Shown: in pieces, positions 19,918-45,458 of the stretch
Position numbering within the stretch: position 1 is the first letter of the stretch
How the letters are laid out: every line of letters starts with the position of its first letter
Source: Phycisphaeraceae bacterium
GTDB lineage: Bacteria > Planctomycetota > Phycisphaerae > Phycisphaerales > Zrk34
DNA: 64,000 nt
NCBI GenBank assembly: GCA_028282805.1
Contig: JANQHD010000032.1
Span: 1-64,000 of the forward strand
Direction of reading: 5' to 3'
Made by a program: the position numbers and the translations under genes
The notes under the pieces: model-generated
The model's input: the letters and a program-made list of their open reading frames with translations, nothing else
Databases searched by the model: none
Told to the model about the DNA's origin: nothing

Positions 19918-20457
19918 ATGCCAACTCCGGGTCAACTCTGGCGCCACGTCGTGCTCGGCACGCTCAACAGCTGGCTGCCCGGCGACCCGCGCGGCTGGCG
20001 CAGCCGGGGCCACCGCAAACACTCGTCCGGTGATTACAAGCGCCGGCCCCCCGAAGGCGAGCACGACGATATTCACCGAAACTCGAAGCGCATCAGCGGT
20101 AAGCCGATCGTGATCCCGCGCCCGTGCCGACCGGTGATCGGCACGAAGTTCATCGATAAGCTCGCCCAATACGAGCAACAGTTGTTGTGTGTTTCGGTCG
20201 GCGGCATGCACGTGCACCTGCTGGTTGAATTACCCGCCGATCTGCGTGAAACCAAGCGCATCATCGGCCAGTGCAAGTCGGCCGCGTCACACGCGGTGCG
20301 CGACCGGTTACCGGGGCGGGTGTGGGGGCGCGACGGTGGGTTCGACCGGGTCAACGATCGCGCGCACCAGCGCAACGTGTACGGGTACATCCTCAAGCAC
20401 GCCGCGGAGGGCGCGTGGGTGTGGTCGTTTCGCGAGGGGGTAATCACGCCGTGGTGA
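19918..20457 (+). CDS. REP-associated tyrosine transposase (RAYT2)
   Basis: A 179-residue RAYT. Motifs: SWLPGDPRGWRSRGHR near the start (shared with RAYT3), the HUH pair H98-V-H100 in GGMHVHLLVEL, a basic recognition segment IIGQCKSAASHAVR, and the candidate catalytic Y157 in VYGYILKHA. It is flanked on each side by an inverted REP-B pair in the same order, which is the standard arrangement for a RAYT and its cognate REPINs. No strong Shine-Dalgarno sequence precedes the ATG; AAACTCTTCTC lies there instead. It looks full length and has no in-frame stops. Confidence 0.9.
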   Translation: MPTPGQLWRHVVLGTLNSWLPGDPRGWRSRGHRKHSSGDYKRRPPEGEHDDIHRNSKRISGKPIVIPRPCRPVIGTKFIDKLAQYEQQLLCVSVGGMHVHLLVELPADLRETKRIIGQCKSAASHAVRDRLPGRVWGRDGGFDRVNDRAHQRNVYGYILKHAAEGAWVWSFREGVITPW

Positions 20458-44796: not shown

Positions 44797-44818
44797 TGTA
44801 TGCGCTTATGGGCGTGTA

Positions 44819-44846
44819 TATAGCCCCCGGCATGCCGGGGGCTATA
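44819..44846. repeat. REP-D copy 1, 28-bp perfect palindrome
   Basis: Reads TATAGCCCCCGGCA then its exact reverse complement, followed by TGTCAT. It lies five bases beyond the end of RAYT3 (stop codon at 44852). Confidence 0.9.
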
Positions 44847-44851
44847 TGTCA

Positions 44852-45412
44852 TCACCCAATCCACTCGTACGGGTCTTCCGCCAACCTCCGCCGCGCGTTG
44901 TGCTCGGCGATGTATTGCCTGACCGCGCCCAGCGCTTCGTCGTCAAACAGAAACACCTTCCAATAGCCCGCCGTCCACGTACGCTTTCGTCCGGCGTTTT
45001 CGGGCATCGCCAACACCGCGCTCGACGTGCGGCTCTTCAGCTTCCCCGCCACCGCGGCGATGTCTTCTCCAATCGGGCCGATCAACAGGTGCACGTGCGT
45101 CGGCTCGATCGTCGCCGCGTGCACGCGCAACCCTTCCATGGGCGGGTATTTAGCCCCCGGCACGCCGGGGGCGACCTGCGCGCCGATCACCCGCGCCACC
45201 ACCGCAATCTCACACGGCGACAACACCTTCCTCGGCTCTTTCATCAGCGCCTTGGCCCGATGATGCGTGACCGTGTCGGGCACGTTCAGCTTGTGCCCAC
45301 GCTCACGCAGCTTGCCGTATAGGTTGAACAACGGCGACCAGTGCCCGCGCGGATCGCCCGGTAACCACGTCCCGTAACCGGTCCAGATCAGGTGAATGCC
45401 CCGGGTGTTCAT
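44852..45412 (-). CDS. REP-associated tyrosine transposase (RAYT3) with internal REP
   Basis: A 186-residue RAYT with TGYGTWLPGDPRGHW near the start, the HUH pair H106-V-H108 in EPTHVHLLIGP and candidate catalytic Y167 in AVRQYIAEHN. It is related to RAYT2 through W-L-P-G-D-P-R-G. REP-D palindromes lie just beyond both ends. A third REP-D lies inside the gene at 45153-45172 and encodes APGVPGA (residues 81-87) in frame, with AQV and KYPP around it. The transposase remains open through it, so it may still be active. ATG 45412 has no strong ribosome-binding site. Confidence 0.9.
   Translation of the reverse strand: MNTRGIHLIWTGYGTWLPGDPRGHWSPLFNLYGKLRERGHKLNVPDTVTHHRAKALMKEPRKVLSPCEIAVVARVIGAQVAPGVPGAKYPPMEGLRVHAATIEPTHVHLLIGPIGEDIAAVAGKLKSRTSSAVLAMPENAGRKRTWTAGYWKVFLFDDEALGAVRQYIAEHNARRRLAEDPYEWIG
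45153..45172. repeat. REP-D copy 2, inside RAYT3
   Basis: GCCCCCGGCACGCCGGGGGC. It is the same palindrome with a T-to-C change in the centre, preceded by TATTTA as in the copy at 45431. It is in frame with RAYT3. Confidence 0.9.
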
Positions 45413-45430
45413 GGGTGCCCCATCATTATT

Positions 45431-45454
45431 TAGCCCCCGGCATGCCGGGGGCTA
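45431..45454. repeat. REP-D copy 3, upstream of RAYT3
   Basis: TAGCCCCCGGCA followed by its exact complement, then TGTGTCAT, close to the copy at 44819. It lies between the RAYT3 start codon and the gatB stop codon. Confidence 0.9.
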
Positions 45455-45458
45455 TGTG

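Follow-up and report, generated by a model that had tools for sequence, protein, structure and literature searches.

Introduction

How domesticated REP-associated tyrosine transposases (RAYTs) are controlled and why REP sequences persist are open questions. The main text of Quentin et al. 2018 describes REPs lying in frame inside RAYT genes as peculiar to subclass 2.4 of TnpA_REP, corresponding to group 4 of Bertels (PMC6006769). In that account, the insertions fall mostly between HuH and Y (beta3-alphaC) at variable positions, with a small insertion at the end of alphaB, far from the DNA surface, and the 'double foot' REPs are explained as collapsed inverted dimers (PMC6006769). Di Nocera et al. 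2013 reported in-frame palindromes with TAG feet (GTAG REPs) inside genes, as well as neighbouring genes whose TAG stop codons are provided by REP feet (PMC3733652).

We analysed a window of 64,000 nucleotides from a Phycisphaeraceae bacterium (contig JANQHD010000032.1), which contains the transposase gene RAYT3 (Table 1). RAYT3 shares with subclass 2.4 the REPtron layout and an in-frame REP within the tnpA_REP gene. The motifs given for subclass 2.4 in the main text of Quentin et al. are, however, NH[IFV]H, WQ and YIxNNP, compared to THVH, WT and YIxxHN in the RAYT3 clade, and whereas the subclass 2.4 insertions vary and are found mainly in the HuH-Y interval, that of RAYT3 occupies residues 81-87, ahead of HUH (106-108), at a fixed position. 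RAYT3 has the in-frame REP and neither the motifs nor the site, and was not assigned to subclass 2.4. Class 3 of TnpA_Y1, as presented in the same text (PMC6006769), resembles RAYT3 in its occurrence, mainly in Planctomycetes, in its W[TA] motif and in its flanking hairpins, but exhibits NHVH, YV..EQ and a CnGA foot in place of the THVH, YI..HN and TAG foot of the RAYT3 clade. The amide five residues past the Tyr is Q in class 3 and N in the RAYT3 clade, and this Y----N pattern, with the TAG foot, ruled out class 3, for which the main text of Quentin et al. describes no REP insertion in the gene (PMC6006769). Judged by its motifs, the RAYT3 lineage appears to match no published subclass; a member of it is possibly present in the supplementary figures of that study. 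Since the motifs and site of the clade are unlike subclass 2.4 and its motif and foot unlike class 3, we regard it as a variant of the published phenomenon. GTAG REPs lie mostly in scattered, unrelated genes at different sites, whereas in the RAYT3 clade the REP lies in the cognate transposase at one conserved site. In comparison with the in-frame REPs of the published main text, what is new here is the different RAYT lineage, the site before HUH, the conserved position and the compensatory evolution. A first-pass annotation of the window had called such an insertion rare, which is too strong in view of the in-frame REPs of subclass 2.4 RAYT genes (PMC6006769, main text) and of many other genes (PMC3733652).

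Table 1. Features of the RAYT3 locus, in window coordinates.
Feature	Position	Strand	Remarks
RAYT3, REP-associated tyrosine (Y1/HUH) transposase gene	44852-45412	-	open ORF, 186 aa plus stop
Intragenic REP hairpin	45153-45172	-	window sequence GCCCCCGGCACGCCGGGGGC, coding strand GCCCCCGGCGTGCCGGGGGC; codons 81-87, APGVPGA
TATTTAG, remaining foot of the intragenic REP	45147-45153	+	template strand
5' flanking REP	45427-45458	.	both feet; between gatB-like stop and RAYT3 start; core 45434-45451
3' flanking REP	44817-44848	.	both feet; directly 3' of RAYT3 stop codon; core 44824-44841
HUH motif H106-V-H108	45089-45097	-	19 residues past inserted segment; histidines invariant in alignment A3
Catalytic tyrosine motif Y167-I-A-E-H171	44900-44914	-	Y167 and H171 invariant in 28 RAYTs

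The RAYT3 protein and its predicted loop

The RAYT3 protein matched the Pfam family Y1_Tnp (PF01797) above cutoff with an E value of 1.4e-6. The NCBIfam model NF047646 (REP_Tyr_transpos) gave an E value of 1.8e-8 and 34.4 bits, under the curated cutoff of 80, which is a naming threshold and carries no biological definition; the same model matched 27 of the 28 aligned RAYTs at E <= 0.001. H106, H108 and Y167 are unchanged across these 28 sequences. RAYT3 thus exhibits an HUH motif and a single catalytic Tyr in an IS200/IS605-like core, and is flanked by REPs that recur elsewhere in the genome, as expected of a RAYT. Residue 171 of RAYT3, four past the catalytic Tyr (window 44900-44902), is His throughout the alignment (A3; 28/28); its counterpart is Gln in IS608 and Asn in E. 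coli TnpA_REP. A second, distant HUH/Y1-type ORF of 179 aa, with HVHLLV and YILKHA, was observed at 19918-20457 (+), and no REP-type hairpin was found beside it.

The AlphaFold model of RAYT3, built with the 28 sequences, had a pLDDT of 87 and a pTM of 0.84, and its fold, in which the elements follow in the same order, matches the IS200/IS605 TnpA proteins of ISDra2 and IS608 as well as E. coli TnpA_REP (structures matched: 2xm3 and, for E. coli, 4er8). In the model, a helix (66-80) is followed by a loop (81-96), a strand (97-102) and the HUH strand (106-111), residues 81-90 being less well predicted (mean pLDDT 74). The inserted segment is accordingly modelled as a loop between helix alphaB and strand beta2, before the HUH strand. 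E. coli TnpA_REP and the ISDra2/IS608 TnpA differ from RAYT3 at this point in having a short turn before the HUH strand hairpin and no internal REP. By analogy, the loop should be harmless to catalysis, because its position corresponds to the alphaB end, where the subclass 2.4 insertion described in the main text of Quentin et al. is far from the DNA surface (PMC6006769).

The palindrome within RAYT3 and its genomic copies

The internal palindrome of RAYT3 is 20 nt long, with a 9-bp stem and a 2-nt loop. As the first-pass annotation had noted, it encodes A81-P-G-V-P-G-A87 with AQV before and KYPP after and leaves the frame open throughout the ORF, and the TATTTA lead that it reported is found, as TATTTAG, before both the internal and the 5' flanking copy; the 3' copy has TATATAG. 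The two REPs flanking RAYT3, with feet ATAG/TTAG, are of the same palindrome type, the 3' one containing a perfect 30-nt palindrome at 44818-44847. About 20 palindromes of this type were counted in the 3.9-Mb genome, compared to 0 for a reversed-pattern control. Among 18 genomic copies viewed in context, nearly all carried two TAG-type feet, one at each end, with TATTTAG often opposite CATATAG or CACATAG; compared with these two-footed copies, the intragenic REP has lost its second foot. These observations confirm that the palindrome is real and that, as originally claimed, it is the REP that flanks RAYT3; the same REP recurs in the genome, and a coincidental match is not credible. The RAYT3 protein is thought to handle, as a candidate substrate, the single-stranded REP hairpin CCCCCGGC(A/G)TGCCGGGGG with its TAG foot.

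As single-stranded DNA, the RAYT3 hairpin has a folding energy of -10.6 to -11.0 kcal/mol. Shuffles fold only slightly less well (z about -1.6) because the surrounding stretch is so GC-rich, and the case for the hairpin is based on covariation and REP identity, not on folding energy.

Distribution of the hairpin among relatives

Relatives were sought in about 1,400 planctomycete and related genomes, with one scan of 84,980 species genomes; a phylum-wide search of 294 genomes yielded no further clade members. The carriers comprise 13 rows (L009, L044, L045/L048/L087, L047, L050, L051, L052, L055, L053, L076 and L088), 12 of them distinct, with L045 identical to L087, and most are from metagenome-assembled genomes. 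A REP-type hairpin was found in all 13 sampled genes of the clade (7 genera, 5 families), in frame and at the same site, between helix VARVIG (alphaB) and the strand preceding HUH. A perfect hairpin of at least 8 bp was present at this site in 12 of the 13 carriers (7 bp in L088), in 0/6 members of the sister group and in 0/18 outgroups. In the latter, which are more distant RAYTs sharing about 32-42% identity with RAYT3, the loop lacks 4-10 residues and the site has no hairpin, which ruled out the hairpin as a general RAYT feature.

The hairpin sequence itself differs between carriers: CCCCCGGCATGCCGGGGG in L045/L048/L087, L047 and both copies of L044, CCCCGGGCATGCCCGGGG in L050, CCCCCGGC(TT/TC)GCCGGGGG in L051, L052 and L055, CACCCGGCATGCCGGGTG in L076, CCCCCGA-ACTG-TCGGGGG in L088 and three copies of CCCCGGCC(TT/AA)GGCCGGGG in L053. 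The number of REP copies per gene ranges from 1 to 3.

The first-pass annotation had read RAYT3 itself as a gene hit by its own target. The hairpins of the relatives strengthen its reading of a REP within the cognate transposase, but a hit on RAYT3 itself is not supported: all close relatives carry the hairpin at the same place, so that a recent insertion in RAYT3 only was ruled out, and P-G-x-P-G or P-E-L-S-G, present at the site in each close homologue, places the insertion in the ancestry of the clade. The expected difference from homologues without the insert was found in the more distant RAYTs, at 4-10 codons in place of the 11-15 foreseen. A P-G-V-P-G segment common to all homologues had been named as the sign of an ancient part of the fold; close homologues do largely share it, but the DNA hairpin itself is conserved and covaries.

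In a tree built with the insert columns left out, the carriers and the sister group, which belongs to another family of the class, share one side of a branch with moderate support (85/94). The sister group is placed inside the carriers, for which one gain and one loss suffice, and a single clade of carriers alone is not rejected (p-AU 0.18). With this moderate support and the carriers-only clade not rejected, the hairpin may have disappeared from the sister group or arrived only after that group had branched off. It keeps extra loop residues, GGPEVG..GxPAAxW, without the hairpin; a decayed hairpin was looked for in L077-L082 against synonymous re-coding and rejected, only L080 being borderline (P 0.048; the rest 0.18-1.0).

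Conservation of the hairpin as nucleic acid

Over the 12 distinct hairpins, 99.0% of the stem cells were paired and three stem pairs are altered on both sides, values reached by 0-1 of 500 shuffles; shifting the partner by one column lowered the pairing to about 61%. Codons for the same residue were identical in 176/215 comparisons (82%) within the hairpin and in 1979/4070 (49%) outside, the sequence pairs not being independent; between genera, same-residue codons elsewhere in the gene fall to about 30-50% identity with the stem still perfect. The peptide varies (PGMPG, PGVPG, PGLPG, PGSPG, PELSG) and the hairpin persists: it is retained despite PELSG in L088, PGSPG in L052 and TPGMPGA in L076, and L050 exhibits compensatory synonymous changes in the stem. 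The hairpin is thus maintained as nucleic acid, and the peptide alone is insufficient to account for its conservation. Lying at one conserved position, it is an old, retained feature.

A different reading would make P-G-x-P-G-A an old, ordinary loop motif whose GC-rich codons form a palindrome by chance, the REP match being secondary. The sister group does have G-x-P-A-A-x-W at the aligned place with no palindrome, and when each gene was re-coded with its own codon use, the peptide alone yielded a perfect stem in 0.4-5% of draws (about 5% for RAYT3, with an 8/8 stem). Against this reading stand the peptide changes that leave the hairpin intact, the synonymous compensation in L050, the excess of codon identity and the TAG feet that adjoin the stem as in genomic REPs; we consider it very improbable as a whole, and its element of a chance palindrome from GC-rich codons is ruled out by the covariation, the codon identity and the feet.

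Relation to flanking and genomic REPs

The internal core tends to follow the REPs that flank the gene. Over nine loci, the REPs flanking a gene were nearer to its internal core than were the flanking REPs of other loci (summed distance 14 compared to 24 expected, p 0.0026), a p value carried mostly by L053 and L076 and obtained with relatedness ignored. The unusual cores of these two loci exactly match the REP that dominates the respective genome, G066 (55 palindromes) for L053 and G647 (19) for L076. Internal and flanking stems differ in L045/L048 and in L047, and genome G011 (92% complete) contained no second copy of its internal CCCCCGGC core, so that copying from a present donor is not the whole explanation. 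At L045 (2544-2561) and at G699:C263:9370-9387, we also observed a mosaic REP, CCCCCGGCATGCCCGGGG, with arms from the two REP types of the locus, which suggests that it arose by recombination between palindromes.

The agreement with host REPs could reflect recurrent insertion, in which each host's REPs independently entered a favoured target loop, or were exchanged there by gene conversion, so that the position is shared and the element is not inherited. This would fit the internal cores of G066 (3 copies in the gene) and G647, which are identical to the REP dominant in the host, as well as the varying number of copies per gene and the entry of REPs into many genes (PMC3733652). However, the sampled carriers all group together, no close relative with an empty site was found in about 1,400 genomes, G011 is without a donor for its core, and an A-[MI]-W reading past the hairpin is common to L045, L047, L050 and L076. 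We hold recurrent insertion to be unlikely.

Origin and upkeep of the intragenic REP

L044 contains a direct and an inverted REP 111 bp apart within the gene; in L076, a complete inverted REP comes after the 5' half of a direct one, and the two form a joint 16-bp stem (z -4.5). These traces suggest an ancestral REP doublet that later collapsed. Every internal copy retains at least one foot, the left only in L051, L052, L055 and L088, the right only in L009, L045 and L047, and both on one palindrome in L050. An ancestral head-to-head doublet collapsed by deletion would explain all of these arrangements, and it is the event that Quentin et al. 2018 invoke for 'double foot' REPs (PMC6006769).

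The explanation that we favour, and consider probable as a whole, is that the ancestor of this planctomycete RAYT clade received an in-frame REP, probably as a head-to-head doublet (REPIN), in the alphaB-beta2 surface loop. The doublet might have been inserted by the action of the RAYT, and in most lineages deletion between the palindromes would have reduced it to one palindrome with one or both TAG feet. The enzyme would tolerate the insert as a loop, presumably at no cost to its function, and the hairpin, whose inheritance across genera is supported, would have been kept as a REP. Its upkeep might be due to a role as a cis site of the RAYT/REP system, the RAYT binding the single-stranded DNA or mRNA of its own gene, for instance in self-limitation, or to repeated renewal from other REPs.

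A passive passenger would have the same origin and departs from this explanation on upkeep: once a REP(IN) had long ago entered a loop that tolerated it, drift, GC-rich codons and occasional conversion from neighbouring REPs would have preserved a hairpin without function. The lower pLDDT of residues 81-90 and the judgement, in the main text of Quentin et al., that REP insertions in RAYTs are likely harmless (PMC6006769) fit this, and the tracking of flanking REPs is compatible with conversion; the perfect stems in genes whose other same-residue codons have diverged so far between genera, and the missing donor in G011, do not. We lean against a passenger while holding it a serious possibility. 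The favoured explanation, in which the hairpin is kept as a REP, may be carried further, to a conserved cis-regulatory element through which the transposase, by binding or cutting its own gene or transcript, would limit itself, with hairpin, enzyme and genomic REPs coevolving; this we put forward tentatively, as rather doubtful.

The clade is a natural enzyme-substrate series in which each gene records the hairpin that its RAYT lived with, and a cis-acting role of the conserved intragenic REP is directly testable by synonymous changes. Were it only a passenger, it would still show clearly how a mobile element inserted in frame can become a stable loop of a protein.

Gene ends and interrupted copies

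Three carriers are not intact, owing to a frameshift in L047, a stop in L053 and truncation in L055. The frameshift of L047 (at about 2160) precedes the REP, leaving the hairpin undamaged, and could be an assembly error or mark a pseudogene. L053 (G066:C58) contains one in-frame TAA in addition to its three internal REPs, and many of the palindromes of its genome form close pairs; its RAYT is perhaps being disabled by its own REPs. Finally, in L044, L045 and L047 the foot of the 3' flanking REP gives the RAYT its TAG stop (ACATAG or ATATAG, followed by the hairpin), so that the coding sequence ends in a REP.
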